Below are positions 4,493 through 27,032 of a stretch of 39,562 nt of DNA, piece after piece. Source of the stretch: Cryomorphaceae bacterium (lineage in GTDB: Bacteria > Bacteroidota > Bacteroidia > Flavobacteriales > Schleiferiaceae). Every line of letters starts with the position of its first letter. Positions within the stretch are counted from its first letter, which is position 1. The notes beneath the pieces are model-generated. The model did no database searches. It saw only the letters and a list, made by a program, of their open reading frames with translations, and was not told the DNA's origin. The stretch lies in contig WTIZ01000033.1 of NCBI GenBank assembly GCA_011525035.1, positions 6,182 to 45,743 of the forward strand, written 5' to 3'. The position numbers and the translations under genes are program-made.

Positions 4493-4499
4493 GGCTCCC

Positions 4500-5606
4500 T
4501 TATTTCACAGGTACAACAACCAATCCCGCCGCCGCTTTCAGCGTCGGCTCATTCACCAACGTAGCACCATTTGCTACGCCACGAACAATCACTTCGTTGT
4601 CTAACCATTCCACAACCTCAACCTCGTTCTTTGCCAAAACGCTGTCACTTTCGATCATGTACATGTACTTATTGTCAAAGACCATCGATGCAGGCAGCTT
4701 AAGGGCACCCATTACAGAAATACCCTGAATTTGACCAGTCAGGTACATGCCTTCGCGCAAGGCTGAACCACGCACTGTGGTAATAATATTGATGCTTTGC
4801 GAAGCTGCATCCACCACTGGAGCTATTCTCGAGATAGTACCCGTCCAATCCCCTGCGATATCTGGAGAGCTAAAAGCCACTTTTTGCCCTACGCTCAACT
4901 GATCGGCATAGCGAAGGCTTACAGCGCTGCGCAATTCATAGCTGTCGGTATTTACAAAGGTTCCCAAGGCGCGTCCTGGACTCACAAGGTTGCCCGGCTT
5001 TACATTCGCCGCAGCCACCACACCATTAAAAGGTGCCTTGATGCTAAACTTTGCCAGACGCTCCTCTGCACTCTTGGCTTGGAAGTAGGCCCCTTGAATG
5101 CCGCGAGCGATCAAGAACTTCTCGAGCTTACCTTCTGCCGATGGCAATGGCTCTAGAGATTTCTCCAAGCTTGTGTTATCATAGTAGGCTTTGAATCGGG
5201 CATAGTCTGAAGGATAATCCTGATTCAAATCCGGTAAGATGGCCAACAGCGCATTGATGAAGTTGCCTTTCACACTCATTGCATTGGCACGCGCTTCACT
5301 ATCGTCGAGACGAATAATAGTCTCGCCTTTAGAGAATCTAGTCCCTTCCAAGAAGGCACGGTCGCTGCCTTTAAATGTTCCGCTTACCTCAGCAAGTAGA
5401 TCCGCTCTGTTGGCAGCGTTTAGGCGGCCGTACACCGTCAATGGTAGAGCCACTGTATCAAGCTCTGCATCTAGTACACGGACCTGGAGCTTGATGTTGT
5501 CTTCCTTGATTTCTTCCTTAGTAGACATGCCGCCTAAGGTTTTAGAAACGAATAACCCTACTGCTAGGATAGCTACTGCGATGATCGCATTTTTAACCCA
5601 CTTCAT
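4500..5606 (-). CDS. RND efflux membrane-fusion (periplasmic adaptor) protein
   Basis: Periplasmic adaptor linking the RND pump to the TolC-like channel. I place the start at the ATG at 5604-5606, giving 368 residues that begin MKWVKNAIIAVAILAVGLF, a basic start plus membrane anchor. An ATG at 5720 is in frame but adds 38 polar residues that run through marR, so I reject it. Visible parts are the lipoyl half-motifs (VSGTFKGSDRAFLEGTRFSKGE early, FSIKAPFNGVVAAANVKPGNLV later), a helical hairpin between them and a beta-barrel after that. The start overlaps the end of marR by 14 bases, which suggests translational coupling. Confidence 0.92.
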   Translation of the reverse strand: MKWVKNAIIAVAILAVGLFVSKTLGGMSTKEEIKEDNIKLQVRVLDAELDTVALPLTVYGRLNAANRADLLAEVSGTFKGSDRAFLEGTRFSKGETIIRLDDSEARANAMSVKGNFINALLAILPDLNQDYPSDYARFKAYYDNTSLEKSLEPLPSAEGKLEKFLIARGIQGAYFQAKSAEERLAKFSIKAPFNGVVAAANVKPGNLVSPGRALGTFVNTDSYELRSAVSLRYADQLSVGQKVAFSSPDIAGDWTGTISRIAPVVDAASQSINIITTVRGSALREGMYLTGQIQGISVMGALKLPASMVFDNKYMYMIESDSVLAKNEVEVVEWLDNEVIVRGVANGATLVNEPTLKAAAGLVVVPVK

Positions 5607-6048
5607 AATTTTCTGGATTGAGGTTGTTGGTGATTTGTCGTAATGTTTGCTCGGTGATTTCTCGAGCTTCTTTTGAAATTCCTTTGAAAGCCAATTCTGT
5701 AATGTCCACTGCCGTTTCATCTATGATCTTCATCACAGATTTCCCCTGCTCGGTAAACACCAAAATATTCTCTCTCTTGTTCCCTGGATTCTGCTCCACG
5801 GCTACGATGTCCGCCTCCTGCAGCTCCTTGACCATACGGCTCACTCGGTGCCGATCGACCTCAAGGAGTTCCACAAGGCACCCTTGTTGCACTGAACCAC
5901 CTCCAAGAAGCATCTTACCGAGAATAGGCAAAGCAGCCGCATTAATATGCAGCCCTTTGTTTAGGAGCTCTGAAACCATGATGTTTCTCAGGTTTTTATG
6001 AGCTCTTCCTAGTAGGTACGGTAGAAAATTGGTGATGTTCGAGGTCAA
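5593..6048 (-). CDS. MarR-family transcriptional regulator of the efflux operon
   Basis: A 151-residue MarR-type winged-helix protein, the normal size. The DNA-binding core is at about residues 55-100: VQQGCLVELLEVDRHRVSRM is the helix-turn-helix and NKRENILVFTEQGK is the wing and following helix. It is first in the operon ahead of adaptor, pump and channel, the classical arrangement of a repressor relieved by pump substrates (as in EmrR/MexR systems). An inverted repeat sits directly upstream over the predicted promoter, which suits autorepression of the whole operon. The ligand is unknown. Confidence 0.92.
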   Translation of the reverse strand: MTSNITNFLPYLLGRAHKNLRNIMVSELLNKGLHINAAALPILGKMLLGGGSVQQGCLVELLEVDRHRVSRMVKELQEADIVAVEQNPGNKRENILVFTEQGKSVMKIIDETAVDITELAFKGISKEAREITEQTLRQITNNLNPENYEVG

Positions 6049-6061
6049 ATTGCTAAGGGTG

Positions 6062-6110
6062 TTTGAACAATTGTTGCATAATTACAACAATTAGGCCATA
6101 AATGTTCAAA
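6062..6110 (-). promoter_or_regulatory. marR-efflux operon promoter with embedded MarR-type operator
   Basis: Inner repeat: AATTGTTG (6069-6076) and CAACAATT (6085-6092), perfect 8-base arms around an 8-base spacer. Outer repeat: TTTGAACA (6062-6069) and TGTTCAAA (6103-6110), also perfect. Read on the minus strand, TTTG (6110-6107), 22 bases, then TAATTATG (6084-6077) fits the Bacteroidota promoter form TTG-N17-23-TAnnTTTG with one mismatch. The proposed -7 box is exactly the spacer of the inner repeat, so a bound dimer would cover it. The repeats are seen directly; promoter and operator roles are inferred. Confidence 0.65.
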
Positions 6111-6127
6111 GAACTCCTCTTTTTAGC

Positions 6128-6160
6128 AAAAAATCCCGGGCCACCATGTGCCCAGGATTT
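6128..6160 (-). terminator. Intrinsic terminator after the tetR-like gene
   Basis: The arms 6131-6141 and 6150-6160 pair over 11 positions with one mismatch and an 8-base loop. On the minus strand the stem runs into a six-base T tract (6133-6128). It would stop transcripts from the tetR-like gene before they reach the marR promoter, so the two regulators are probably separate units. Confidence 0.8.
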
Positions 6161-6221
6161 CGTGTTATAACCTCAATGAAAATCAAACGATACTCGTTGA
6201 GACGACAAAACTAACAAATCA

Positions 6222-6235
6222 TGAGTAATTACTCA
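6222..6235. promoter_or_regulatory. Perfect 14-base palindrome resembling the tetR operator
   Basis: TGAGTAATTACTCA is a perfect palindrome lying over the stop codon (6233-6235) of the tetR-like gene. It shares the AGTAAT-ACT core with the inverted repeat at the start of that gene (6763-6782), so it may be a second site for the same protein. It lies about 175 bases upstream of marR. The sequence is certain; the function is a guess. Confidence 0.4.
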
Positions 6236-6763
6236 CTCATTTAAGACCAATTCTCGCATTCCAGCTGCAATGGACTCTACAATGCCCATGTGGCCCAATG
6301 CACCCGAAGCCAACATGCCTTCTTGTGCGCTAAGCAAAGTGCGGGCAACATCCGTAGGTTTTCCATGTCCAATAGCACCTAAGGCCCATGCCAGTCGTTC
6401 CAACAATACCGCGTAACGTAACTCATGATCTATACCCAATTCCTGGGATAACCGCAATGAGGTAATCCACATCTTCGCACTATCCACATACTGTATAGTG
6501 CGCACAGAGTAGTCTATAAAGGCACGTAGGAGTTCCGCAGGATCCTCGGCAGTAATAAATTGTTGAATTTCGCTCTGATAACGCTCGTCACTTTGTTGGA
6601 GCAATTCTTCAACCAAGCCACGCTTGTTCTTAAAATGCCGAAATATGAGGCCTTCACTCACGCCTGCCTCTTGGGCAATACGGGCGGTAGAAGTTGCTGC
6701 ATACCCTTTTTCAGAAAACAAATCTAGGGCAGCAGCTATGATGTCGTCGCGTTTATTAGACAT
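6233..6763 (-). CDS. TetR/AcrR-family transcriptional regulator
   Basis: A 176-residue TetR-family protein, slightly short but within range. The N-terminal domain is clear: KRDDIIAAALDLFSEKGYAA, then the helix-turn-helix TSTARIAQEAGVSEGLIFRHF, then KNKRGLVEELL. The C-terminal ligand-binding part (about residues 60-176) is helical with no recognisable ligand signature. The start at 6763 fits the family N-terminus. An operator-like inverted repeat overlaps that start codon, suggesting autoregulation. It sits between polA and the efflux operon; regulating the neighbouring pump is possible but unproven. Confidence 0.93.
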   Translation of the reverse strand: MSNKRDDIIAAALDLFSEKGYAATSTARIAQEAGVSEGLIFRHFKNKRGLVEELLQQSDERYQSEIQQFITAEDPAELLRAFIDYSVRTIQYVDSAKMWITSLRLSQELGIDHELRYAVLLERLAWALGAIGHGKPTDVARTLLSAQEGMLASGALGHMGIVESIAAGMRELVLNE

Positions 6764-6782
6764 AGTAAGTAATCACTTACTA
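6763..6782 (-). promoter_or_regulatory. Putative TetR operator over the tetR start codon
   Basis: TAGTAAGT (6763-6770) and ACTTACTA (6775-6782) are perfect 8-base inverted arms around AATC. The left arm includes the first base of the ATG, so a bound dimer would block initiation of transcription or translation. Size and symmetry are typical of TetR-family operators. No convincing -33/-7 pair was seen upstream. Confidence 0.7.
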
Positions 6783-6824
6783 ATATACCACATTTCACAA
6801 CGTTTTGACGTTTTCCTAGAAAAT

Positions 6825-9656
6825 TTAGTGTGCTTCGAGCCAATTCGCTCCGGTTCCCACCTCTGCAACCATAGGAACAGCTAGGGAAACAGCCGCTTCC
6901 ATTTTTTCAATGACCAATGATTTTAAAGCCTCTAATTCCTCAATACGAGCGTCAAAGACCAATTCATCGTGCACCTGCAGAAGCATTTTTGACTTCATAT
7001 TGGCATCACGCATGGCTCGATCAAGCTCAATCATGGCAAGTTTGATGATGTCTGCCGCAGAACCTTGGATGGGTGCATTGACCGCGTTTCGTTCGCTGTG
7101 TCCACGAACCACTGCATTACGACTATCAATATCTTTTAAATAGCGACGTCGACCTGTGATTGTTTCTACATAGCCCTTTTCACGAGCAACGGCTACTTGT
7201 TTGTCCATGTACTCCTTGATGCCTGGGTAAGTTCTAAAGTATCCATCAATGGCTGCTTTCGCTTCCTTACGGCTCATATCCGTTTGCTGGCTCAATCCAA
7301 AGGCGCTTACCCCGTAGACGATACCAAAATTCACCGTTTTCGCATTCGAACGCTGTTCTCGCGTCACTTCTTCAGGAGCCACCTCAAATACCTTTGCTGC
7401 GGTAGCCCGGTGAATGTCTTCACCGTTCTTAAAAGCACTAATCATCGCCTCATCGCCCGCTAATGCCGCAATGACACGGAGCTCAATCTGGCTGTAATCT
7501 GCCGCCATCAGTATATGCTCTTCATTGGCAGGCACGAACATCGCGCGCACCTTTCGGCCATTTTCTGTTCGGATTGGAATGTTTTGAAGATTAGGATTGG
7601 TCGAAGACAATCGGCCCGTCGCAGCGACCGTCTGATTAAAGCTTGTATGTATTCTTCCCGTCTTACCGTGGACCAATTCTGGTAGGGCATCGACATATGT
7701 GCTCTTCAACTTCTTCAACTCGCGGAAGTTGAGGATATGCTCGATAATGGGATGGCTCTTACGCAATCCCTCAAGGATCGCCTCGGAAGTAGCGTATTGG
7801 CCAGTCTTGGTTTTCTTGGGCTTGTCCGACAACTTTAAATCATCAAACAATACCTCGCCCAACTGTCGAGGGGAACCTACATTAAACGGGCGACCTGCCA
7901 TTTCAATGATCTCGCGCTCTAGTCGAACAATTATTTCACCCAACTCTCCACTGTAGGTATTCAAGGCATCTACGTCCACCTTAATGCCTTCGCGCTCCAT
8001 GCGCGCAAGCACCGGAACGAGGGGCATCTCAATGTTATGGAAGACCTTGTCTACGCCTGTTTCTGATAGTTTTGGCTCAAAAACCTGCTTGAGCTGGAAG
8101 GTGATATCCGCATCTTCTGCCGCATAATCAAGAACAGCAGCAGGTTCGATATCGCGCATATTTTTCTGATTCTTTCCTTTCTTTCCAAGGATAGATTCTA
8201 TAGAGATAGTCTCGTAGTTCAAATAGGTCTCTGCAAGAATGTCCATGTTGTGGCGCATGTCGGGCTGGATCAAATAATGCGCAATCATTGTATCAAACAA
8301 TGGCCCCTTCACCTCAACACCGTAATTCATCAATACGCTCAAATCGTATTTAATGTTCTGGCCAATTTTTTCACCCACACTTTCCCAGAAAGGCTTAAAC
8401 GCCATAAGCCACTCTTCAGCTTTTGCTCTATCCGCAGGCACCGGAACGTAATACGCCTTGCCGGAAGCATACGAAAAACTCATGCCTACGACTTCCGCAT
8501 CCAAGACGTCCAAAGAGGTTGTCTCAGTATCAAAGGCCACCGAAGACTTTTCAGCCAATAAGTAGGCCAACTGCCTTGCCTCCTCAAGAGTTTCAACTAG
8601 TTGATAAAGGTGGTCGGAATTGGCCACAGAGTTTCTTGAACTGACCACAGCAGCCTCTTGTGTCGGCGCATCGTCTCCACCGAACAAACTCATTTGATCG
8701 TTGGAGGTAAGCTTTACTTTTTTAGTTGGCGCTGGCGCAGTTTCGGCCGATTCTTCCGTTCCTCTTTTTAGACCTAGTCGACGGCCAAGTGTTCTGAACT
8801 CTAGCTCTTCGAAGATGTCCATCAAACCGTCCTGATCCCATGGGTCTCTAGTCAATGTCTCGGGCGCAAGGTCAATAGGCACCTCAGTGATGATCCGCGC
8901 CAATCGCTTGGACAAGATGCCCAACTCAGCATTATCACGAATCTTCTCGCCTAGTTTCCCCTTAATCTCATCTGCATGCGCTAGGGTTTCCTCAAGCGAG
9001 CCGTATTGCTTCAACAGCTTGCTCGCAGTTTTTGCTCCTACTCCAGGTAGACCTGGGATGTTATCTACGGCGTCGCCCATCATACCCAAATAGTCAACTA
9101 CCTGCTGAACGTTATCGAGATCGAACTTCTCACAAACCTCAGCCTCGCCCCAAACCTCCGGAGGGTTGCCTCCACGTGCCGGGCGATACATAAATATGTT
9201 CTCACTTACCAACTGCCCGAAATCCTTATCCGGTGTCATCATATAAGTGGTGAAGCCTTCCTTCTCCGCTTTTTTCGCTAGGGTTCCTATCACATCATCG
9301 GCCTCATAGCCTGGAACACCAAGCGCCGGGATTTTAAACGCTTCCAAAATTTTATGGATATACGGCACAGCCAGTTTAATGGCCTCCGGCGTAGCATCTC
9401 TGTTCGCCTTGTACTCAGGGAAAATTTCATGACGCTCTGTAGGCTGCGGCAAATCAAAGCACACAGCGATGTGAGACGGATTCTCCTTGCTTAATAGATC
9501 CAATAGTGCGCTGGTAAAACCATAAATCGCAGAAGTATCTAAACCGCCTGATGTAATGCGGGGATTCTTCGCAAAAGCGAAGTATGCACGAAAAATAAGC
9601 GCGTAAGCATCTAATAAAAACAGCTTTTTTTCAGCTGCAGGAGTGTCTTGACCCAT
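6825..9656 (-). CDS. polA: DNA polymerase I
   Basis: Gap-filling and repair polymerase that also removes RNA primers; 943 residues against 928 in E. coli. The 5'-3' exonuclease domain (about 1-300) has LLDAYALIFRAYFAF and EADDVIGTLAKKAEKEGF. The proofreading domain (about 345-545) keeps its metal ligands: D376/E378 in FDTETTSLD, D438 in KYDLS, and Y511/D515 in YAAEDAD. The polymerase domain has motif A with D720 (ADYSQIELR), motif B (RSNAKTVNFGIVYG) and motif C with D897 (QVHDELVFD). All three activities should therefore be present. The ATG at 9656 fits the family start. No clear terminator was seen before the tetR-like gene. Confidence 0.98.
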   Translation of the reverse strand: MGQDTPAAEKKLFLLDAYALIFRAYFAFAKNPRITSGGLDTSAIYGFTSALLDLLSKENPSHIAVCFDLPQPTERHEIFPEYKANRDATPEAIKLAVPYIHKILEAFKIPALGVPGYEADDVIGTLAKKAEKEGFTTYMMTPDKDFGQLVSENIFMYRPARGGNPPEVWGEAEVCEKFDLDNVQQVVDYLGMMGDAVDNIPGLPGVGAKTASKLLKQYGSLEETLAHADEIKGKLGEKIRDNAELGILSKRLARIITEVPIDLAPETLTRDPWDQDGLMDIFEELEFRTLGRRLGLKRGTEESAETAPAPTKKVKLTSNDQMSLFGGDDAPTQEAAVVSSRNSVANSDHLYQLVETLEEARQLAYLLAEKSSVAFDTETTSLDVLDAEVVGMSFSYASGKAYYVPVPADRAKAEEWLMAFKPFWESVGEKIGQNIKYDLSVLMNYGVEVKGPLFDTMIAHYLIQPDMRHNMDILAETYLNYETISIESILGKKGKNQKNMRDIEPAAVLDYAAEDADITFQLKQVFEPKLSETGVDKVFHNIEMPLVPVLARMEREGIKVDVDALNTYSGELGEIIVRLEREIIEMAGRPFNVGSPRQLGEVLFDDLKLSDKPKKTKTGQYATSEAILEGLRKSHPIIEHILNFRELKKLKSTYVDALPELVHGKTGRIHTSFNQTVAATGRLSSTNPNLQNIPIRTENGRKVRAMFVPANEEHILMAADYSQIELRVIAALAGDEAMISAFKNGEDIHRATAAKVFEVAPEEVTREQRSNAKTVNFGIVYGVSAFGLSQQTDMSRKEAKAAIDGYFRTYPGIKEYMDKQVAVAREKGYVETITGRRRYLKDIDSRNAVVRGHSERNAVNAPIQGSAADIIKLAMIELDRAMRDANMKSKMLLQVHDELVFDARIEELEALKSLVIEKMEAAVSLAVPMVAEVGTGANWLEAH

Positions 9657-9769: not shown

Positions 9770-10993
9770 ATGATCTTTAGAATCCTCTTTACCCTGGGAT
9801 TTGTACTTGCCATAGACCTATACGCCTATCAAGCTTTCAAAACCGTCTTCCGTTCTACCGCCACCCCATGGATTTATTGGGGAATTACACTCGCCTACAT
9901 CGTACTGAGCGTCAGCATTTCCGTGCTTATGAGCAGCGGTAAAGTGGATTATAAATACCTCGGTGTCCTCATGGGAGCAAGCATCTTATTGGCCGTTCCT
10001 AAATTGGTCGCTATCATCCCGTTATTGATTGAGGATATTACCCGTTTGGGTCAATTCCTTTTCCGTGCCGCAACTACCCAGCCTACCACCCTGCCGGGAC
10101 GCCGAACTTTCATTTCACAGATTGCTTTGGGACTCGCAGCCATTCCATTTATTGGCATCATCGACGGCATTTGGAAAGGACGCTACCGTTACCGCGTGAT
10201 CAGCCACACTTTAGAATTTGAAGACTTGCCTGATGAATTCGACGGATTCACCATTGCTCAGATTTCAGATATTCATAGCGGATCCTTTGACAATCAAGAA
10301 AAGGTGGAATACGGTGTTCAGATGGTCAATGAACTCGGTGCAGATGCCATTATGTTCACTGGAGACATGGTGAACAATATTGCCACAGAAGCAGAACCGT
10401 GGATCGATACATTTAAAAAACTCAGTGGGAAGAATGGTGTGTTCTCCATCTTGGGGAACCACGATTATGGCGACTATTGGCGCTTCCCCTCTGCTCAAGC
10501 GAAGGTGGATAATTTGAATCGACTCAAAGAAATCCACGCAGAGATGGGCATGGACCTCCTGCTCAATGAAAGTCGCTATTTCGAGCGCGGGAACGAGCGT
10601 TTGTATTTGGCCGGTGTCGAAAACTGGGGACTTCCTCCTTTTCCACAATACGGCGATCTACAAACAGCGCTCAATGGTGTTCCCGAGGACGCTTTTACCA
10701 TATTGCTGAGCCACGACCCGTCACATTTTGATGCCGAAGTCAAACAACACTCTAAAAAAGTGCACCTCACCTTAAGTGGTCATACGCACGGCATGCAGTT
10801 TGGGATTGAAATACCCGGTTGGATCAAGTGGTCGCCGGTAAAATTCAAATATCCGAAGTGGGCGGGATTGTACCCTGAGCCTGACGGTCAAGTCCTGCAT
10901 GTAAATAGAGGATTCGGATTCTTAGCCTTTCCTGGTCGTGTTGGGATGTGGCCTGAAATCACACACATCACGCTGCGTAAAAAATTGGCTTAG
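9770..10993 (+). CDS. Membrane-anchored calcineurin-like metallophosphoesterase (YkuE/YaeI-like)
   Basis: Predicted di-metal phosphoesterase facing the periplasm, 407 residues from the ATG at 9770. Earlier in-frame starts at 9710 and 9737 add a polar leader before the first membrane helix and are less likely. Residues 1-95 contain about three hydrophobic helices. A twin-arginine-like segment GRRTFISQIALGLAAIPF follows (RR at 111-112). The catalytic domain has the full metal set: SDIHSG (D167, H169), TGDMVNN, LGNHDYGDYW (N230, H231), LLSHDP and SGHTHGMQFG. The family includes YkuE and UDP-diacylglucosamine hydrolase-like enzymes; the substrate cannot be assigned. Its stop overlaps the stop of the convergent cyclase-dioxygenase gene by 3 bases. 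Confidence 0.85.
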   Translation: MIFRILFTLGFVLAIDLYAYQAFKTVFRSTATPWIYWGITLAYIVLSVSISVLMSSGKVDYKYLGVLMGASILLAVPKLVAIIPLLIEDITRLGQFLFRAATTQPTTLPGRRTFISQIALGLAAIPFIGIIDGIWKGRYRYRVISHTLEFEDLPDEFDGFTIAQISDIHSGSFDNQEKVEYGVQMVNELGADAIMFTGDMVNNIATEAEPWIDTFKKLSGKNGVFSILGNHDYGDYWRFPSAQAKVDNLNRLKEIHAEMGMDLLLNESRYFERGNERLYLAGVENWGLPPFPQYGDLQTALNGVPEDAFTILLSHDPSHFDAEVKQHSKKVHLTLSGHTHGMQFGIEIPGWIKWSPVKFKYPKWAGLYPEPDGQVLHVNRGFGFLAFPGRVGMWPEITHITLRKKLA

Positions 10994-12960
10994 ATTTCTT
11001 TGTAAAGGCGCGACATAAAGTAGATGTGAGGTAAACTCAACGCGCTTAAGAAAATGAGAAAATAGCTCGACCACTGCCACAGTGAACTGCGGTCAAACTG
11101 GTAGATCACCAAGAACATAATCACCGCACCAGCTGTAAAAGGCAGCGCCTTAATAAACATGCCACTGTGCGTCCAGTTCTCTGTCGTACGCAAATGCCCC
11201 CAACCCGTTAAGCTGTGCTGTAAAACGAAATACACGCCAAAGCTCAATACCAAAGGCAACTGCGTTCCTAATGCCAAAGCAATTAATGACAGTGCCCAAG
11301 CGGCCGATCTGAACCAGAAGGCACACATAAATCCGAGGAAGAGCATCATATTCACTAATGAGGCCGCTAGACCCGCTTCGACAGGCCAGGCAGGTACATT
11401 CATGTAGCTCATCATGGTGTTCACTTCCTCAATGTGTGAGAGTAAAACTATTCCAAGCAGCATGGTGCCCCATAAAAATGACAATCCGGCGTTGGAACGC
11501 TGCCATTCAATAAGATCTGTCTCGCCAAAATGCCAAGCACTATATATAAGGAAGAAGACAAGACCTGCGATCGGACTAACCAACCATAACAATACTACCA
11601 AAGCCATTATACCGAGGTAACGAGCAATGAATGCAGGTAACTTTAAATTACGAGCGTGCGAAAATCCATCAAGTGCCCCATGAGGAATCCCAACCAAAAA
11701 GAGGAAGAACAGCAACAAGCCGATTCCCAAATTCGTACCGTACCCCGGAGCAAAATGGTTGATGGCAAGCGCCAAAAGAGAAAACACAATAGGCACCCAG
11801 CGCTGAGGTTTGGACAACATGAAAGCAAAAGCCGATACCACAGCACTCCAAACAAATTTGCGTTTGTTCAATCGAGCAAACATGCCAATTTCCCAACGTA
11901 CGCTGCTCTTTTCATCCAAGAAAGTAAACACCTCCGCAGTAGGCTTTGATTTAAACAGTCGGGTGAAAATGCTTTTCCCCCAGTGCGGTCGAAACTTTAA
12001 AATAAAGAGCAAGACAAAATCATAAAAAGCAAAACGACCACCACCCCTCGAAGGCAAACCAAACCAAGGATTCGTCGATTTATTCAATGATTCGTTCACT
12101 GCGATTTCGCGGCCGTGCTCGTACATATTCTTGAATGCATAGCCTGTTGTCGCTTTTAACTTACCCGCACGAGCACCCGTTGAAATCACTTTTGGACTGC
12201 GGTGGTACTGCTCCGCGTTCTGGGACATAGGCAATACGCCCCGCTCAATATCATTAATACTGTAATTGCCGTTGAAGGTCAGCAGATAATTACGCAATAA
12301 ATCCTTCGCCAGTTCTGGCGAGAGTAATTCGTTTCCAAATCTTGTAAGCTCGATGAGGGCTTCAGTCTTACTCGTAGGTAGAACATATACGAATTGTGTA
12401 AAACCGCTTTGAGGAATATTAAAATCCATCAAGCGCATCGTCTCCTCATTAAACGTAGGCTTATCAAAGGTCACCTTCCAACCTTCAAAACTTTGCCAGA
12501 CGGTTTTACCAATGACCTCATTAATTAAAGGCGGACGACTGTCGTATACCTTTAGAACTTGATAGCTTCCTTCATTGGTATGTAGATCGATATAAACATT
12601 GTGATCCTCAATCTCTCGAACCTCCTCGTTGGAAGCTTTGATATTTGGATGGCGCTCTAATAAGGCCCGGGTCTTATCGTAGAGGGCAATACTCTCCACC
12701 ATGTAATAACGCATACCCTTCAGGTGTTCTGCCTTATTACCAGAAACTACTCTGGACCAACTGTGCTTGATCTCTGCGCCCAAGTCCTGAACGATATCAT
12801 CGTCAGGATAGGCCCAGAAACAATAGGTCTTATCGTTCACTGCTTTGAAGCTGTGGTCAAATACTATACCTGCCGATTCCTCCAGCAAGCCTTCTTTTTC
12901 CATGTGCAACAAGAGCAATGAATTCGCAGCTCCCAATCCTATGAGTCCAAAAGTATACAC
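10990..12960 (-). CDS. Lycopene cyclase - Brp/Blh beta-carotene dioxygenase fusion
   Basis: One uninterrupted 656-residue frame combines two retinal-pathway enzymes. Residues 1 to about 370 read as lycopene beta-cyclase (CrtY): a nucleotide-binding start GLIGLGAANSLLLL, YCFWAYPDDD, and the signature TGARAGKLKATTGYAF at 261-276. Residues from about 375 to 656 read as a Brp/Blh-type beta-carotene 15,15'-dioxygenase: seven or so hydrophobic segments with GIPHGALDG (H427), SAWHFGETD (H477), QHSLTGWGHL (H582, H589) and LPHIYF (H645). Expected lengths of about 380 and 280 add up to the observed size, so both halves look complete. Lycopene would be closed to beta-carotene and cleaved to retinal for the divergent proteorhodopsin. 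The start codon is GTG. The dinucleotide motif has N in place of the third Gly. Family assignments are confident; activity of both halves is inferred. Confidence 0.88.
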   Translation of the reverse strand: MYTFGLIGLGAANSLLLLHMEKEGLLEESAGIVFDHSFKAVNDKTYCFWAYPDDDIVQDLGAEIKHSWSRVVSGNKAEHLKGMRYYMVESIALYDKTRALLERHPNIKASNEEVREIEDHNVYIDLHTNEGSYQVLKVYDSRPPLINEVIGKTVWQSFEGWKVTFDKPTFNEETMRLMDFNIPQSGFTQFVYVLPTSKTEALIELTRFGNELLSPELAKDLLRNYLLTFNGNYSINDIERGVLPMSQNAEQYHRSPKVISTGARAGKLKATTGYAFKNMYEHGREIAVNESLNKSTNPWFGLPSRGGGRFAFYDFVLLFILKFRPHWGKSIFTRLFKSKPTAEVFTFLDEKSSVRWEIGMFARLNKRKFVWSAVVSAFAFMLSKPQRWVPIVFSLLALAINHFAPGYGTNLGIGLLLFFLFLVGIPHGALDGFSHARNLKLPAFIARYLGIMALVVLLWLVSPIAGLVFFLIYSAWHFGETDLIEWQRSNAGLSFLWGTMLLGIVLLSHIEEVNTMMSYMNVPAWPVEAGLAASLVNMMLFLGFMCAFWFRSAAWALSLIALALGTQLPLVLSFGVYFVLQHSLTGWGHLRTTENWTHSGMFIKALPFTAGAVIMFLVIYQFDRSSLWQWSSYFLIFLSALSLPHIYFMSRLYKEI

Positions 12961-13172
12961 GATTACGATTAAATGTCTAAATGACCCTTTTATTTTATAA
13001 ACCGAAAAAACGCCGTTTTGTTCTCTGAAAAGCTTGGAAATGGACGAAATCTGGCCGTAAATAGATGAAAAACAGGTATTGTTTAAGTTTTTCTACTCAA
13101 TTTTAAACATCTGTGAACAAATTCCATAGGGTGCAGTTAAGTGGTAGTTATAACCTTTAATAATTATACACC
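12961..13172. other. Divergent control region between cyclase-dioxygenase and proteorhodopsin
   Basis: 212 bases, AT-rich, holding the promoters of both divergent genes. I could not find a convincing TTG-N17-23-TAnnTTTG pair on either strand, nor an inverted repeat long enough to call an operator. There is no open frame or RNA gene. Light-responsive control is possible but nothing in the sequence shows it. Confidence 0.5.
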
Positions 13173-13952
13173 ATGTCACTGACAACTTTATTGGCTAGCG
13201 TAAGTGCTAGCAACGCGGCAGTAGATTTAACTGCCTACACTGACATCACAACCGTTACTTCGTTTACGTTCTTCGTAGGCTGTATGGCTATGATGGCTGC
13301 ATCTGTGTTCTTCTTCTTCGAAATGTGGAACGTAGATAAGAAATGGCGTACTTCTTTATTGGTTAGTGGTTTGATTACGTTCATCGCGTTCGTACACTAC
13401 TACTACATGAGAAGCTACCACTTCGAAACTGGAGAATCTCCAACATTCTTCCGTTACGTTGACTGGACGCTAACTGTACCACTAATGTGTGTTGAGTTCT
13501 ACTTGATCACTAAGAAAGCTGGTGCTAAAATGGGTCTTCTATGGAAACTCATCTTTGCGTCTGTAATTATGCTTGTAACTGGTTACCTCGGTGAGACTAT
13601 CTACCGTGAGTCTTCAGTTCTATGGGGTGTTATCTCTGGTGCTGCTTACTTCTACATCGTATTCTTGGTGTGGAAAGGAGAAGTGGCTCAGTTGGCAGCC
13701 AACGCTGGTCCTGCAGTAGCGAAAGCAGTAAAAGTTCTTTTCTGGTTCGTTTTAGTAGGATGGGCAATCTACCCATTAGGTTACATCTTGGGTACACCAG
13801 GCGGTTTGTTCGGAATGCAATTAGTTTCTGATTCAGCTGCTGCATCTGCATACATGGATGTTGTTTACAACATTGGTGATGCGGTTAACAAAATTGGATT
13901 CGGTCTAGTTATCTACTCTCTTGCTGTTAGCACGAAAGAAGAGGCGGCTTAA
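13173..13952 (+). CDS. Proteorhodopsin, proton-pumping, green-type with antenna fenestration glycine
   Basis: Seven-helix light-driven outward proton pump, 259 residues. Numbering matches the reference green proteorhodopsin in helix C: D97 (Schiff-base counter-ion), T101, M105 and E108 (proton donor) in RYVDWTLTVPLMCVEFYL, with R94 and H75. The DTE triad marks a proton pump rather than a sodium (NDQ) or chloride pump. M105 in place of Gln predicts green absorption. Helix G has YNIGDAVNK with D236 and the retinal lysine K240. In helix E, hand alignment to bacteriorhodopsin puts G152 where bacteriorhodopsin has W138, the glycine that lets a carotenoid antenna reach retinal in xanthorhodopsin. 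The hydrophobic start (residues 1-20) may be a cleaved signal. The gene is alone between a control region and a strong terminator. Confidence 0.98.
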   Translation: MSLTTLLASVSASNAAVDLTAYTDITTVTSFTFFVGCMAMMAASVFFFFEMWNVDKKWRTSLLVSGLITFIAFVHYYYMRSYHFETGESPTFFRYVDWTLTVPLMCVEFYLITKKAGAKMGLLWKLIFASVIMLVTGYLGETIYRESSVLWGVISGAAYFYIVFLVWKGEVAQLAANAGPAVAKAVKVLFWFVLVGWAIYPLGYILGTPGGLFGMQLVSDSAAASAYMDVVYNIGDAVNKIGFGLVIYSLAVSTKEEAA

Positions 13953-13974
13953 TCATACGTTTCAGAGTGTTTGG

Positions 13975-14008
13975 AACCCCCACCGCGGCTTCGGTGGGGG
14001 TTTCTATT
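13975..14008 (+). terminator. Intrinsic terminator of the proteorhodopsin gene
   Basis: AACCCCCACCG (13975-13985) pairs over 11 bases with CGGTGGGGGTT (13992-14002), with a 6-base loop and a T-rich tail. This strong hairpin isolates proteorhodopsin from the following peptidase gene. Confidence 0.93.
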
Positions 14009-14066
14009 TTTAGGACCATTCCTAATTCCCCCTTGGCGTATCTTTATTGTCACAAATACCTGGATA

Positions 14067-15941
14067 ATGAAGTACCCAATTCTTGTTTTAACCCTACTCT
14101 GCTCTCTTAGCGCTTTTCCTCAGAAAACTGGTGCGCACTCTTATAAAGTTGACCTCACTAACGTGGTAGACGATCGTGTGAAAGTGACAGTCGACGCAAC
14201 ACTCACAAATCTTAGCGAGACCTTTGACGGCAAATACAGGTTTAACTTCCCAGCGACCATACCCGGCACCTACGCTACTTTAGATTACGGCCGATTCATC
14301 CACGATTTCCAAGCATTCAATAGCGACGGTAAGCCGCTTAAAGTTTCCAAGAAAAAGAACACCTACACCATCAAAGGCAAGCCTGCCAAAATTGAATATT
14401 GGGCAGAAGACAGCTTCGACGCAAAAATTCGCAAGAACAAAGTCTTCGAGCCTGCAGGTACCAACAACCAAGAGCGCAGAAATTTCCTCTTGAATGCCGC
14501 CGGCTACTTTGGATTTTTTGAAGGACTTGAAGATTTACCAGTATCTCTTGAAGTCAACAAAAGCCCTAGTCTTTACGGCTTGAGTGCTATGGAAAGTTAT
14601 TCCTACGGGAACACGCAAAACTTCTATGCCCGCGATTACCACCATTTTTTGGATTGCCCCGTAATGGTAAGCAAGCCAGACACTACTTCATTTATGTTAG
14701 GCGGCGCAAAAGTGACCATTGGCGTATTCACTGAAAATGGTCGTGAACTTTCTAGGGACATCTACAAACAGGTAGAAACCAGCATGAAGGCCATTGAAGC
14801 CTTCTTACAAGGTGATCTCCCGGTAGACAACTATGCCTTCATTTTTTACATCAAAGACCACACTGAATTTGAAAGCCTATTCAACGGTTCAGAGATTAAA
14901 ATCGGCACCGTATTTAAAGCATTGAGAAAATTAGCGGGTAAAGGATTTGGGGCACTCGAGCACGGCAACAGTTCTGTATACTACCTTCCTGATTTTGGCG
15001 GCACGACCGTGCTTGACGGCATGGCCGATGTGTGTATACACGAATTCTTCCACATCCTCACACCGCTTGGACTACACAGTGAAGAGATTGGAAACTTCAA
15101 CTACATCGAGCCGAAGATGAGTAAGCACCTTTGGCTGTACGAAGGCATCACTGAGTACTTTGCCGGCATCAGCCAAGTCAAAGGTGGAGTCATCACCAAA
15201 GACGAGTACCTCACCAAGGTTCTGAAAGGAAAGATCCGTAGTGCCGCACGCTACCCAACAAAGAAAATGTCGTTCACTGAGATGAGTGAAAATGTCCTGG
15301 ATAAACCTTACAAGAAGCAATACGGTCAAGTCTACCAAAGAGGTGCGCTAATGGGCGCGCTACTAGATATTCGTATCATGGAGTTGACCCAAGGCGAAAA
15401 AGACTTGCACGATATCATACTTACCCTCCGCGACAAATACGGCCCTAATGAAAGTTTTAACGACGACGAGATAATTGAAGAGTTCGTAAGCCTCGTTCAT
15501 CCAGACCTTCAGCAGTTTTTCGATAGTTATGTCACAGGGCGGGAAGAACTGCCGATTAAATCTTATTTGGCAAAAGTCGGTGTCGAATACGACAGGAACT
15601 ATGTGGGTCCCCTCATTGCACATCCGGTGAATGATAACGATGTGAAGCGCAGTAGATTAATTGTTGGTCAGAAAATGACCATCAAGAAGGTTGGTAAAGA
15701 CGATTTTGTAGGTTTTAAACCTGGTGATAAAGTGAGTATTCTAGACGACAAGCTTTTCTCAGGACCACAAGCACTTGAACCGGGTGAGACCATAGAGATC
15801 AGCGTCCTACGAGATGGTGAGAATATTCAATTGCCGTACACGGTGAGGACGGTCGAAGGATCAAAAAGCCACTACATCCGAGAAGCTAAAGACATGACCA
15901 CTGCCGAGGCAACCTTACAACTGCTTTGGTTCTCGAACTAA
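14067..15941 (+). CDS. M61-family metallopeptidase with C-terminal PDZ domain
   Basis: Predicted exported aminopeptidase of the M61 (glycyl aminopeptidase) family, 624 residues. I place the start at the ATG at 14067, which gives a signal peptide (MKYPILVLTLLCSLSAFPQK). The frame is open further upstream but would begin with TTG and run through the proteorhodopsin terminator. The N-terminal beta domain spans about 25-170. The catalytic domain has HEFFHIL with H325, E326 and H329, and the third zinc ligand E359 in LYEGITEYFAG, the gluzincin spacing. Residues from about 525 to 605 (GVEYDRNYVGP to VLRDGENIQL) look like a PDZ domain. Substrate unknown. It ends 1 base before the stop of a convergent lipoprotein gene. 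Confidence 0.9.
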   Translation: MKYPILVLTLLCSLSAFPQKTGAHSYKVDLTNVVDDRVKVTVDATLTNLSETFDGKYRFNFPATIPGTYATLDYGRFIHDFQAFNSDGKPLKVSKKKNTYTIKGKPAKIEYWAEDSFDAKIRKNKVFEPAGTNNQERRNFLLNAAGYFGFFEGLEDLPVSLEVNKSPSLYGLSAMESYSYGNTQNFYARDYHHFLDCPVMVSKPDTTSFMLGGAKVTIGVFTENGRELSRDIYKQVETSMKAIEAFLQGDLPVDNYAFIFYIKDHTEFESLFNGSEIKIGTVFKALRKLAGKGFGALEHGNSSVYYLPDFGGTTVLDGMADVCIHEFFHILTPLGLHSEEIGNFNYIEPKMSKHLWLYEGITEYFAGISQVKGGVITKDEYLTKVLKGKIRSAARYPTKKMSFTEMSENVLDKPYKKQYGQVYQRGALMGALLDIRIMELTQGEKDLHDIILTLRDKYGPNESFNDDEIIEEFVSLVHPDLQQFFDSYVTGREELPIKSYLAKVGVEYDRNYVGPLIAHPVNDNDVKRSRLIVGQKMTIKKVGKDDFVGFKPGDKVSILDDKLFSGPQALEPGETIEISVLRDGENIQLPYTVRTVEGSKSHYIREAKDMTTAEATLQLLWFSN

Positions 15942-15942
15942 T

Positions 15943-16350
15943 TTATTTACGACGCCAAAGTTCTCGAATATCGAGGCCTCCGTTGTTGTATTCGAAGACC
16001 AGATTGTCGTAATCGACCACAATATAGTCCCACCGAAAACTATACGTTGGGGTAAAAAAGATGATCTCTTGAAGCGCTGTATCTAAAGTGAATTCGCCGC
16101 CGTTTTCACTGTTTGACGCCCTGTACTCCCAAAGACCTTGGAGATCACTACAGAGTGAATCGTCTGTAATGATCAAGTCTTCACCTTGAAGGAAGGCCGG
16201 CAACATTGTGACGGTATCTGTTCTCTGATAAATTTCCCAATGACCGACTAATCCCTCGTCCACTAAAACAGACTCTTCGCAAGAAGGACGGGCAGTACAA
16301 GCGCTCAACAACGCAGCAAAAAACAATAGTGCAACTATATAGCGCATCAA
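15943..16350 (-). CDS. Small lipoprotein of unknown function, last in the glucan locus
   Basis: A 135-residue predicted lipoprotein with signal peptide and lipobox LLSAC at residues 14-18. The rest (GLVGHWEIYQRTD near 33-45, then beta-rich segments) resembles the loose lipocalin-like or 'lipoprotein of unknown function' group common in Bacteroidota, but I recognise no specific family. Its ATG overlaps the GH5 stop by 4 bases, so it is translated with that gene. The placement suggests a role at the cell surface in the same pathway, but no motif supports a specific one. Confidence 0.75.
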   Translation of the reverse strand: MMRYIVALLFFAALLSACTARPSCEESVLVDEGLVGHWEIYQRTDTVTMLPAFLQGEDLIITDDSLCSDLQGLWEYRASNSENGGEFTLDTALQEIIFFTPTYSFRWDYIVVDYDNLVFEYNNGGLDIRELWRRK

Positions 16351-19043
16351 TGAACGATCAATAGTTTTTCGGTAAACCTTCTTCCAGAAGAAACTACAGT
16401 CACTAGATAGGTGCCAGTAGATAAATCCTTAGTAGAAATCACGCGATCCGGAGTATAAGCAAGCGACTCTTTCATCCAAAGCCTGCCTGATTCGTCATAC
16501 ACGTACATTTCAAGCTGGGTTCCTTCCGTCCACATACCCCCGAGCCTAAAGCCATCTTGTGCGGGATTCGGATATACCATTAACTGGTCTGAGGCCAATT
16601 CTTCATCGAGTCCAATCCCTTGAATAAACTCAAACCAATTGATATTCACAGGAGCTTGAATGACATTCAGCTTCAAGATGTAATCGCCTTGTGTCAGCAC
16701 ACCAGCATTTCCACTAGTAGTGGTCCAAGTCTGCCATCCACCCGTCAACGGTAGTGTAACTTCCGGCATATTGCTTAAGTATGTTCCAGAAGTATCGTAC
16801 AATTCAAATTGAATCTTACCGTTGCTTTGTGAAGCGTGGCGGTAATCAATAGAATAAGTAGCATTGTTTAACACCTTGATGTCGTACAGCAAATAGTCGC
16901 CACCGTCTAGATAACCAATGTTCTGCCCTCCACCCACGTCGGAGGTGTTCTCCAATGAAATTCCATCCATGCTAGAATAGGCTTCTGCTTCTATTTTACC
17001 CGGAATGACGTGCACTGTAGGCAATGTATTTTCAACCAATTCCTGAGTAAATGGATCTACGGAAGTTCCGTCTTTTGCTTTCAAAGTAGTTCCTGAATAA
17101 GACACTTTCATTTCGTCTAAAAAGGTCATGTTTTGATTAAGCGTCAAGATGAAATTTCGAACATTGTTTGGACTAGGTGCAATGTTGACCACCGATGCCT
17201 GATTTCCGTTTATCGTGACATAGTAAGAGGCAAAATTTCCAAGCTGGGTCGTATCCAAAGGCTTGTTGGTTTTGACCTCAATTTCAGTATAGCTGTATGT
17301 ATTTGAACTAACGTATTCGGCATCTAATGCCGTAGTACTTCCGGTCGGGATAAATTCAAAGCTAGCGACATTGAAGCCGCCACTATTCGCTACAAAGCGA
17401 AGCGTCTTGTCCTCAGAGGACAGAATAACATTAGGAATTACCTTATCGGCGAGTATCGACCAGCTGCCAGTATTCGAAGCATAATAGTTTGGGGTCAATT
17501 TTACACCGTCTGCTTCAAAGTAAAAGTTCCCCCCAGTGGCACCATTTGCACCCTGGCGTACTTTGATCGTATACACACTGTCTTGCGCAATATCTACGGT
17601 GTATTGCATCCAATCGTCTGTATCCACCCAGCCCACACAGTAGCCATTGCTGTTTACGAAATCTGAGAATGCCTGCACATCTACCCCATCGTTTCTATAC
17701 GTCCAGCCACTGTTCCAAGCAGGTGGAGGATTCAGCTGCATAGATTCAGTGTCGTAGTATGCTACTCCCAAAGGACCCATATCGTATTCTGAAGCATGAA
17801 CAACACCCGGAATAGTGTGCTCCTTCCATGGCAATGCAGTAGGATCATAGATTTGTCTAAACATCGCATCGATGACCCCTCTATTATAGGTACAATTCTC
17901 AGCCTTCAAGTTGGTCGCTAGCTGCATGAGTGCAGCCGTAGCATCAGCAACAGACGGAGCACTCGCACTACCACTCCAATAATTCAACAATTGCTGGTAC
18001 CCAAGATTTTTAGTGATGCTTAAAGGCGCATTAATGGTCTCTACCTTCTTCAATGGCCACCACGCCCAACCAACCCCTTCGGATTCCATGATGCTGATTA
18101 AACCCGTATACCAAGCATTCGAGTTTTCACCGGTTTCACCAAACCAAATAGGCACGTTGTACGTATCTCTTAAGTCCAAACCATACTGGATATCGGCCAC
18201 ACTATTTACCGGAGACCAATACTTATGGGGCGAGTAGGCCATGTTGTTGTCCCATGGCGGTGTCAATCCAGTAAATGTATTTGCAAACCAATTCCCTTCT
18301 ATAAAAATGATGTGGTTCGTATCTACGGTTCTAATACTGTCCGTGATGTCTTCGTACAGATTTCTAAGCAACGTTCCACCTGGTAAATTCCAGTTGGGTT
18401 CGTTGATTAAGTCGTACCCGGCAATAGTCGTGTCTGTTGCGAACTTCTCCGCAAGCTTCTTCCAGAGCGCAACCGTCTTCGTCCTATTGTGTACGCTTTC
18501 CCAAAGCGAAGGCTTCGTAGGATCATAATCACTGATACCTTGATCGTAGCCCTGGCCACCCGGCGCGGCATGAAGGTCTAAAATGACATACAATCCTGCA
18601 TCTTCTGCCCAAGTAACCACTGAATCTAAAAGATTAAATCCCTTAGTGAGCCAAGTATTTTGCCCAAGCACAGGTTCCTCTTCGATCGGCAGGGTAAAGA
18701 GATTATAATGCATGGGAACTCGAATGGTGTTGAAACCCCAAGCCGCCATGCTGTCTACATCTGCCTTGTTGAAATGGTTTTCTAGCCAAGCGTCGTAAAA
18801 CGCCTGCGTTGCTGTAGCGCCAATAAGATCTTCAATGGTATCCTTAATCTTATGTTGCGGATTCGCGAATGAAGCAGTTTGAAGCATATAGCCTTCCTGA
18901 ACCATCCAACCGCCTATTCCCATAGCACGAATAAGTAGTGTATCGCCTGATCCATCGACGATAGCCTTACCATTAGATTTTACGTATTGAGCGGAAACAA
19001 AGGTTGAAACCAATAGTGCCCCAAGAAGAAATAAGCGTTTCAT
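16347..19043 (-). CDS. Secreted GH5 glycoside hydrolase with two CBM6 modules and T9SS domain
   Basis: Extracellular multi-domain glycanase of 898 residues. Signal peptide 1-18 (VSTFVSAQ). GH5 catalytic domain about 20-360, with acid/base E215 in DLINEPNW and nucleophile E303 in WFGETGE, plus HAAPGGQ and SPHKYW. CBM6 about 410-566, an Ig/SwmB-like linker domain about 570-675, a second CBM6 about 681-808 (GKIEAEAY, GYLDGGDY, INWFEF), and a type IX sorting domain 820-898 (VYPNPAQDGF to TEKLLIVH). Within GH5 the subfamily is unclear: beta-1,3-, beta-1,4- or mixed-linkage glucanase are all possible, with glucan activity favoured by the neighbouring GH16. It has its own predicted promoter and a terminator-like hairpin in the leader. 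Confidence 0.92.
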   Translation of the reverse strand: MKRLFLLGALLVSTFVSAQYVKSNGKAIVDGSGDTLLIRAMGIGGWMVQEGYMLQTASFANPQHKIKDTIEDLIGATATQAFYDAWLENHFNKADVDSMAAWGFNTIRVPMHYNLFTLPIEEEPVLGQNTWLTKGFNLLDSVVTWAEDAGLYVILDLHAAPGGQGYDQGISDYDPTKPSLWESVHNRTKTVALWKKLAEKFATDTTIAGYDLINEPNWNLPGGTLLRNLYEDITDSIRTVDTNHIIFIEGNWFANTFTGLTPPWDNNMAYSPHKYWSPVNSVADIQYGLDLRDTYNVPIWFGETGENSNAWYTGLISIMESEGVGWAWWPLKKVETINAPLSITKNLGYQQLLNYWSGSASAPSVADATAALMQLATNLKAENCTYNRGVIDAMFRQIYDPTALPWKEHTIPGVVHASEYDMGPLGVAYYDTESMQLNPPPAWNSGWTYRNDGVDVQAFSDFVNSNGYCVGWVDTDDWMQYTVDIAQDSVYTIKVRQGANGATGGNFYFEADGVKLTPNYYASNTGSWSILADKVIPNVILSSEDKTLRFVANSGGFNVASFEFIPTGSTTALDAEYVSSNTYSYTEIEVKTNKPLDTTQLGNFASYYVTINGNQASVVNIAPSPNNVRNFILTLNQNMTFLDEMKVSYSGTTLKAKDGTSVDPFTQELVENTLPTVHVIPGKIEAEAYSSMDGISLENTSDVGGGQNIGYLDGGDYLLYDIKVLNNATYSIDYRHASQSNGKIQFELYDTSGTYLSNMPEVTLPLTGGWQTWTTTSGNAGVLTQGDYILKLNVIQAPVNINWFEFIQGIGLDEELASDQLMVYPNPAQDGFRLGGMWTEGTQLEMYVYDESGRLWMKESLAYTPDRVISTKDLSTGTYLVTVVSSGRRFTEKLLIVH

Positions 19044-19069
19044 GATGTGTAGTTGTGTAGCTACAAGAT

Positions 19070-19107
19070 AAAAAAAACGAGGCGCTTCCCTTGGGAAGCA
19101 AACCTCG
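19070..19107 (-). terminator. Intrinsic terminator or attenuator in the GH5 leader
   Basis: On the minus strand CGAGG (19107-19103), an AAA/C internal bulge, GCTTCC-CAAG-GGAAGC, then CCTCG (19082-19078) form a two-part stem followed at once by eight T. It can end the regulator transcript. It also lies between the predicted GH5 promoter and the GH5 ATG, 27 bases before the latter, so GH5 transcripts would have to read through it. Confidence 0.85.
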
Positions 19108-19147
19108 CTTTAATGATGCGCAGTTTTGGCAATCGGTAACACTTCTT

Positions 19148-19204
19148 CAAAGATGCGATAATTGCTTCAGGGCGTGTTATTTAAAGCAAGACAGTTGCCG
19201 GACA
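19148..19204 (-). promoter_or_regulatory. Predicted GH5 promoter with paired TGTCCGG-like activator site
   Basis: Minus strand: TGTCCGG (19204-19198), CAAC, TGTCTTG (19193-19187), 31 bases, then CATCTTTG (19155-19148), one mismatch from TAnnTTTG. There is no good -33 box, as expected for an activator-dependent promoter. The arrangement copies the susC promoter, where the same repeat lies 32 bases before its -7 box. The second half-site matches 5 of 7 bases. Confidence 0.5.
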
Positions 19205-19205
19205 A

Positions 19206-22019: not shown

Positions 22020-22037
22020 GTGCGCAAGGTACAAAAT

Positions 22038-22065
22038 GAAAGGGGGACCCGAAACGGGTCCCCCT
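22038..22065 (-). terminator. Intrinsic terminator at the end of the susC operon
   Basis: AGGGGGACCCG (22041-22051) pairs over 11 bases with CGGGTCCCCCT (22055-22065) around AAA. On the minus strand a TTTTCATTTTG tail follows. It separates the five-gene susC operon from the regulator gene, whose own promoter I could not identify. Confidence 0.85.
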
Positions 22066-22098
22066 ACACTTACTTACTAACCAAAAGGTAAGTGAATA

Positions 22099-23427: not shown

Positions 23428-23453
23428 GTTAAGCATTTATTTATGGTTAGTAA

Positions 23454-24614: not shown

Positions 24615-24623
24615 GTATTCTCC

Positions 24624-25499: not shown

Positions 25500-25510
25500 A
25501 ATTCTAAATT

Positions 25511-27025: not shown

Positions 27026-27032
27026 GTTTTAT

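Follow-up and report, generated by a model that had tools for sequence, protein, structure and literature searches.

A crtY-blh fusion gene beside a rhodopsin gene in Bacteroidota: a putative one-protein route from lycopene to retinal

The window analysed here is a stretch of 39,562 nucleotides from the genome of a Cryomorphaceae bacterium (GenBank assembly GCA_011525035.1, contig WTIZ01000033.1, positions 6,182 to 45,743). At 10990-12960 of its reverse strand a single open frame of 656 codons, with a GTG start and zero internal stops, joins a CrtY-type lycopene cyclase to a dioxygenase of the Brp/Blh family. Judged from its sequence, the fused protein is very likely bifunctional. We propose a membrane enzyme which would convert lycopene into retinal. 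The N-terminal half, a CrtY of the flavin adenine dinucleotide (FAD) type, would close both ends of lycopene to yield beta-carotene, and the C-terminal Blh half would cleave beta-carotene at the central double bond. The retinal would go to the rhodopsin encoded 212 bases away, its presumed consumer. Most likely the fusion arose once, by the joining of neighbouring crtY and blh genes of the kind that is still adjacent, and mostly overlapping, in many unfused relatives; since then the fused gene would have spread in Bacteroidota together with rhodopsin. In the source genome it would serve as a dedicated retinal branch. Other carotenoids would probably be made via CrtYcd, a second cyclase, and via enzymes resembling CrtZ and CruF, leading to a hydroxylated, possibly monocyclic carotenoid. 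Within the protein the CrtY half may pass beta-carotene directly to the Blh half. In the explanation as a whole, i.e., a bifunctional lycopene-to-retinal enzyme, a dedicated branch and a probable single joining, we place considerable confidence. The features are as follows.

10990..12960, reverse strand: crtY-blh fusion gene, 656 codons (open frame; two Pfam domains; single frame in 78/78 related loci)
11866..12960, reverse strand: CrtY-type lycopene cyclase half, residues 1-365 (Pfam match 7-360, conserved residues, predicted fold), with the landmarks FAD-type start G8/G10/A11, conserved block 39-49, E204 and T206-G209 block
11791..11865, reverse strand: junction, residues 366-390, with predicted helices 366-383 and 385-403 (AlphaFold model)
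10993..11790, reverse strand: Brp/Blh beta-carotene 15,15'-dioxygenase half, residues 391-656 (Pfam BCD, TIGR03753, all-helical model), with histidines 427, 477, 582 and 645
12961..13172, no strand: intergenic region of 212 bases between the divergent fusion and rhodopsin genes (gene coordinates)
13173..13952, forward strand: proteorhodopsin-like type-1 rhodopsin gene, 259 amino acids (aa) (Pfam Bac_rhodopsin, E 1e-43)

Residues 7-360 match Pfam Lycopene_cycl (PF05834; E 4.4e-31, 108.7 bits at a cut-off of 23.4) over model positions 5-366 of 380. Residues 420-652 match Pfam BCD, the Brp/Blh family (PF15461; E 1.1e-27, 97.8 bits at a cut-off of 28), and this half also passes the cut-off of NCBIfam blh_monoox (TIGR03753; 120.3 vs. 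95.25 bits). A preliminary description of this DNA had read one 656-codon frame with both signatures, full-length halves and a junction without a stop; the two matches bear this out. The GTG start appears plausible because the related loci L036-L038 have ATG at the equivalent codon. The end of a convergent phosphoesterase gene overlaps the last four bases of the fusion gene.

The fusion is a direct observation, and it recurs. A search of 100 relatives and then of 88 genomes of the family found it whole and in a single frame in 23 of the 25 genomes of the genus, the source genome included; in the remaining two (G005 and G006) it is interrupted by contig ends. Other genera of the family carry the whole fusion in three g11 genomes and two g5 genomes, and in a further g11 genome (G126) it is cut by contig ends. 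The search of 100 relatives also showed the same order of the two domains in G073. In G243, a member of the Bacteroidota sample described next, both domains lie in one frame but a TGA stands between them, and the stretch reads as two genes three bases apart. An evenly drawn sample of Bacteroidota genomes, at least 80% complete, holds the fusion in 5 of 394, again counting the source genome; within the phylum the fusion is a minority form.

A pattern scan of the GTDB species genomes, which used the fused protein as query, thus favours fused matches and gives no frequency, returned 123 related stretches, and the best 80 of these represent 78 distinct loci. In all 78 one uninterrupted match spans the junction. 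The frame is closed in 76; L067 and L102 run off their contigs before a stop. Identity reaches down to 33%, and contigs measure up to 2.2 Mb (L051). The records are labelled Schleiferiaceae, Cryomorphaceae, Crocinitomicaceae, Chitinophagaceae, Saprospiraceae and others and are mostly metagenome-assembled genomes. Two labels point to other phyla (L066, Streptomyces griseus; L102, Candidatus Parcubacteria) and are taken for misnamed bins. Among 16 pattern matches in a scan of viral contigs there were 0 relatives of the fusion. The recurrence which the preliminary description had proposed to look for is thus plain, with 23 of 25 whole genes in the genus and at least 78 loci in other species genomes, and the stop or frame shift near 11850 which it had named as the sign of an error occurs in none of the 78 related loci. 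One could suspect an artefact of assembly or sequencing that joined two genes, most records being metagenome-assembled genomes. All 78 loci read through the junction, at such divergence and on such long contigs, and the fused rows are confined to one side of a single branch in the CrtY tree discussed below. Because the fusion recurs across the genus and in other species genomes, chance and assembly error are excluded, and the probability left to an artefact is negligible.

The conservation of the two halves was counted in 79 fused rows, i.e., the window and the 78 loci. In the cyclase half K39, D43-T45, C47-W49, E204 and T206-G209, among others, are invariant in all 79, and G8, G10 and A11 in 54 of 54 fused rows. 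The Blh half has, among others, G424, P426-G428, D431, H477-G479, H509, H582, S583 and W587 invariant in 79/79; H645 is kept in 78, the one gap being consistent with L067, whose frame reaches the end of its contig. His 427, 477, 582 and 645 are common to the 17 fused and 28 unfused Blh rows that were aligned; we take them to be the ligands of the metal, iron. Ratios of non-synonymous to synonymous substitution rates (dN/dS) were calculated for 21 pairs, 39-97% identical, one of which includes the window. They range from 0.020 to 0.198 in the cyclase half and from 0.031 to 0.284 in the Blh half, each computable in 17 of the 21 pairs, and are rough, as at least one half is saturated in 5 pairs and several other dS values exceed 1. 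For the junction the range is 0.017-0.510 (20 of 21 pairs); 16 pairs gave a ratio for every region, and 10 of them have their highest one there. By these ratios both halves are under purifying selection. With conserved residues retained and purifying selection acting on either half, the loss of one is unlikely. If only one half worked and the other were a relic or a structural anchor, the sub-threshold scores against the NCBIfam CrtY models, detailed further below, would fit; otherwise nothing speaks directly for such a state. It is difficult to reconcile with family-wide conserved residues in both halves, with purifying selection on both, and with a source genome in which no other BCD or CrtY-type gene was found and in which rhodopsin is nevertheless kept. 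We regard it as highly improbable.

The structure prediction which had been proposed was carried out with AlphaFold2 on 54 aligned fused proteins. The model has a mean predicted local distance difference test score (pLDDT) of 88.7 and a predicted template modelling score (pTM) of 0.78, and displays a cyclase fold, then a helical junction, then an all-helical half. Residues 366-383 and 385-403 are modelled as helices leading from the cyclase into the all-helical half, and the junction block has a pLDDT of 88-95. The stretch that starts at F369 and stops short of G424 comprises 50-55 residues in 79/79 fused rows. The first three Foldseek matches of the model are 3oz2, 6aio_A and 4k22_A (E 3.7e-12 to 5.4e-11, 380-432 columns); the best among the matches listed are geranylgeranyl reductase-like proteins and flavin (FAD) monooxygenases at 10-14% identity. 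As modelled, the cyclase half possesses an FAD-binding fold akin to that of geranylgeranyl reductase and flavin monooxygenases. At E 0.01 the fused profile had no match among PDB sequences. Searched with the single sequence, solved structures yielded 408 matches at E values up to 1, and nearly all of the 60 listed were maltose-binding-protein chains rather than carotenoid enzymes.

A single frame could also yield two proteins, either through a second translation start close to the junction or through cleavage by a protease. Of the 79 fused rows 44 have a Met in the stretch 364-410, the window at 381. The other 35 have none there, and at most 14 rows share a Met at any one position, in a count that covers Met only and not GTG and TTG starts; furthermore, the junction is modelled as helix. 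An internal Met start for a separate Blh was rejected as its position is not conserved among the 79 fused rows, and we give little credence to two products from this frame.

Relatives outside the fused clade carry two genes, in keeping with the earlier statement that CrtY and Blh are normally separate. In the family crtY adjoins blh in 6 of the 8 unfused genomes with matches to both; in the phylum it does so in 21 of 26 unfused genomes among the matches listed, from which weak Blh matches are absent. We read 26 neighbouring unfused pairs, picked for adjacency and leaving out G239, an apparent neighbouring pair. In all 26 both genes are on the same strand, crtY followed by blh. Twenty-five overlap or are at most 10 bases apart, and one is spaced by 590 bases; starts were set at the first possible codon, thus the overlaps are upper bounds. 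As such pairs adjoin or overlap in the same order, a fusion needs little beyond the in-frame loss of the crtY stop.

A tree of the CrtY halves (55 fused and 32 unfused rows) places all fused rows on one side of one branch with a support of 100/99. This branch is present in 100% of 200 bootstrap trees, and a quick tree agrees. A quick tree of the Blh halves (55 fused and 28 unfused rows) also keeps the fused rows together with a support of 90. The trees omit L067, L033 (99% like the window) and the duplicate genus loci L003-L028, and thinning had removed 30 of 85 distinct fused rows beforehand. The simplest reading of the trees is probably a single origin of the fusion. By eye, several subclades agree between the CrtY and Blh trees. 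The fused genes of g1, g11 and g5, all from family f1, are placed in three separate subclades by each tree, which suggests that the fused gene was transferred between lineages; the alternative is loss from an old spread. Upstream of unfused crtY two loci from two genera of the family resemble each other: in L116 a photolyase-related gene (DPRP, scanned; 7009-8502) is directly adjacent, in L117 a similar-looking frame (6131-7642).

The neighbourhood of the fusion was read in 77 loci, i.e., the window and 76 others; L067 and L102, having no closed frame, were left out. A rhodopsin gene is located within 2.2 kb of the fusion in 56 of the 77. It is upstream on the same strand in 28, upstream and divergent in 18 (window included) and downstream on the same strand in 10. 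Fifteen loci without rhodopsin have shorter flanks than those considered below. At the level of genomes, 35 of 36 with the fusion have a rhodopsin match, the exception being G002, where the fusion sits on a 3.6 kb piece. The source genome has one, at 13173-13952. Genus g11 differs from most other loci: the rhodopsin gene is elsewhere in the genome, and the fusion adjoins a polyprenyl synthase gene tail to tail (about 4076-7085; L120 scanned, L127 by look). In L119 (G046; about 4046-8864) the fusion sits between two rhodopsin genes. Beyond the second one are short crtY pieces (G046:C37:81045-81194 and 81502-81666, the latter with a stop), and similar crtY fragments with stops are seen in G107. 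From its sequence the rhodopsin-retinal unit at the G046 locus seems to have been duplicated in tandem, one copy having decayed since.

The source genome comprises 1.99 Mb and is 92.8% complete. On contig C50 crtI, crtB and idi stand in a row (L115, 4788-10025), and CrtI passes the NCBI bifunctional phytoene desaturase/3,4-desaturase model (730.9 vs. 640 bits). There is one BCD match and one CrtY-type cyclase, and both are the fusion gene. The only other PF05834 match, considered as a second CrtY-type cyclase, is a 37-position stretch below the cut-off in a flavoprotein-like frame and was discarded. A different cyclase does exist. Contig C37 encodes a CrtZ-like protein (156 aa) and, three bases behind its gene, a CrtYcd-type cyclase (233 aa; PF18916, 129.5 bits vs. 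a cut-off of 27, in two stretches, i.e., repeats); a CruF-like gene (PF04240, 102.4 bits; below the narrower NCBI CruF models) lies about 2 kb further on. The preliminary description had expected little free beta-carotene to be left unless there is another cyclase; its proviso applies, as the fusion is not the sole cyclase. A conclusion that the source genome is devoid of CrtZ was wrong: FA_hydroxylase (PF04116) missed the gene, whereas a model built from six look-alikes found it with 242 bits. The six had themselves been found by PF04116, and of two scanned as proteins one matched it. L164, chosen for a CrtZ look-alike, has no such reading frame.

The CrtZ-like, CrtYcd and CruF-like genes presumably fit a monocyclic hydroxylated carotenoid such as saproxanthin. 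Going by these similarities, the C37 genes likely constitute a branch to a hydroxylated, possibly monocyclic carotenoid. With an unrelated CrtYcd-type cyclase encoded behind the CrtZ-like gene, the source genome seems to use the fusion as a dedicated retinal branch. A two-end cyclase tied to Blh would make sense because a monocyclic branch would not supply beta-carotene. The CrtYcd of Algoriphagus is called a monocyclase in passing (PMC2889829; this and all papers below are cited from the parts of their text that were accessible). Both loci have further neighbours. L115 continues beyond crtI, crtB and idi with a pterin-synthase-like gene (by look) and with genes for GTP cyclohydrolase I and a DNA photolyase, so that carotenoid, pterin and light-repair genes form a row, and in L167 (contig C37, 2783-7199) a peroxiredoxin gene accompanies the CrtZ-like, CrtYcd and CruF-like genes.

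Several observations weigh against the explanation of the fusion as a lycopene-to-retinal enzyme of single origin and dedicated use. The cyclase half stays below the cut-offs of the NCBIfam CrtY family model TIGR01790 (62.9 vs. 209.5 bits) and of the CrtY equivalog TIGR01789 (39.2 vs. 215.2 bits); for this reason it is filed under the broad Pfam family and not under the narrow equivalog, and by its sequence it is a distant member of the CrtY type. Six of the 77 loci have no rhodopsin gene despite at least 3 kb of flank on both sides. The crtY and blh genes are apart in two of the eight unfused family genomes (G030 and G102) and, among the matches listed, in 5 of the 26 unfused genomes of the phylum. 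The careful Blh tree sets the long-branched unfused L116 inside the fused set with a weak support of 57/58, and one of its clades occurs in only 33% of bootstrap trees; a tree forced to unite the fused rows scores 0.64 log-likelihood units lower and is retained by the approximately unbiased test (p 0.48). The CrtZ-like protein of the source genome has no Pfam or NCBIfam match at E 0.001, and the name CrtZ for the gene ahead of CrtYcd is our assumption. Genes missing from a source genome of this completeness may be unassembled. Two further points emerge from a survey of CrtYcd in 75 genomes picked from the earlier searches (36 fused, 39 unfused). CrtYcd is also present in 6 of the 39 unfused genomes, all six with crtY beside blh; and all three genomes of g163 possess the fusion and a CrtZ-like gene and neither CrtYcd nor a second CrtY-type cyclase, the two cyclase types covered by the search.

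Among the fused genomes of this survey 30 of 36 have CrtYcd (g1 22/25, g11 4/4, g5 2/2, g32 1/1, g62 1/1, g163 0/3). The three g1 genomes without it also have no full CrtZ-like gene, which fits a gap at the CrtZ-CrtYcd locus. Counted by genus, CrtYcd is found in 5 of 6 fused vs. 4 of 16 unfused genera. Six unfused genera have both a CrtZ-like gene and crtY next to blh; four of them possess CrtYcd (g3, g6, g67 and g74) and two do not (g9 and g107). As comparable unfused genera possess CrtYcd too (5/6 vs. 4/6), a link of the second cyclase to the fusion as such was dropped and we make no such claim. The second cyclase goes with the crtY-blh unit, fused or unfused.

Does beta-carotene stay within the fused protein? 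Both halves may well be active while the fusion fixes only their ratio and co-location, and beta-carotene diffuses freely through the membrane, from one half to the other and to further enzymes, without channelling. To this possibility we incline slightly. Many unfused relatives manage with overlapping genes, thus co-production was already in place. In g163, which offers a natural counter-test, if CrtZ there uses beta-carotene, some of it must leave the fused protein, as no second cyclase of the two types searched is present. On the other hand, the nearly fixed length of the linker and its modelling as helix suggest a defined geometry. A second cyclase in five of six fused genera is what one would expect if beta-carotene stays; yet it is also found in some unfused genera. 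With or without channelling, we infer bifunctionality, the direction of flow and the division of labour between the two cyclases. Whether a phylum-wide lineage of one-polypeptide lycopene-to-retinal proteins keeps retinal synthesis insulated, while a second, unrelated cyclase makes the other carotenoids, is a more tentative matter: we consider it conceivable, short of probable. If true, there would be two parallel cyclisation branches per cell, one of them committed to the chromophore of rhodopsin.

The preliminary description knew of no characterised bacterial enzyme of this form. This agrees with the open-access literature, in the accessible text of which no bacterial CrtY-Blh fusion was found (most subscription journals, preprints on bioRxiv and databases of protein architecture lay beyond this search); the architecture as such, with at least 78 loci, is not unique. 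What may be new is a bacterial CrtY-Blh fusion, two known enzyme families in one protein, an earlier mention being possible. Mentions of a "fusion" in the text seen concern heliorhodopsin domain fusions and a bifunctional catalase and are unrelated. In rhodopsin-bearing prokaryotes crtY (or crtYcd) and blh are named as separate genes (PMC7734400, PMC5877348, PMC9239080); like the window, these organisms have retinal genes, in some beside a rhodopsin gene. Nearest in this literature is a four-domain CrtI-CrtB-CrtYcd-Blh protein of the protist Thecamonas trahens (PMC10016063), in which, as in the fusion, a lycopene cyclase precedes a C-terminal Blh in one polypeptide. Compared by description, it differs in being eukaryotic, in its CrtYcd-type cyclase (PF18916 vs. 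PF05834 here) and in having CrtI and CrtB joined too. Further joined carotenoid enzymes are the CrtYcd of archaea and Algoriphagus and a fungal cyclase with phytoene synthase (PMC2889829). They likewise unite carotenoid enzymes in one polypeptide, but the partners are CrtYc and CrtYd in the former and cyclase and phytoene synthase in the latter; neither includes a cleavage enzyme. Related, too, are the unfused crtY-blh pairs of Bacteroidota. They comprise the same two families, in the same order and on the same strand in every neighbouring pair read, yet are two proteins and are split from the fused rows by the 100/99 branch of the CrtY tree.

Rhodopsin phototrophs must split their carotenoid precursors between retinal and other pigments. 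To our knowledge there is no settled account of how this split is set. A fused cyclase-dioxygenase that seemingly had a single origin and is located beside rhodopsin genes would be a concrete, testable device for it. Further, fusion and rhodopsin gene would form a two-gene cassette which might enable a cell that makes lycopene to build a light-driven pump. Such a cassette would be of use in engineering, and it would help to account for the passage of phototrophy from one lineage to another.

Directly downstream of the rhodopsin gene, on the same strand, is an M61-type peptidase gene (13971-15941). The reverse strand at 16347-30140 carries a polysaccharide-use cluster with a GH5 cellulase with CBM6, a GH16 protein, a CBM48-type protein and SusD; a SusC-like gene at 27033-30140 is named by size and place only. 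At 1331-6763 a resistance-nodulation-division (RND) efflux pump of the AcrB family, an HlyD-type adaptor, and MarR and TetR regulators are encoded in a row.

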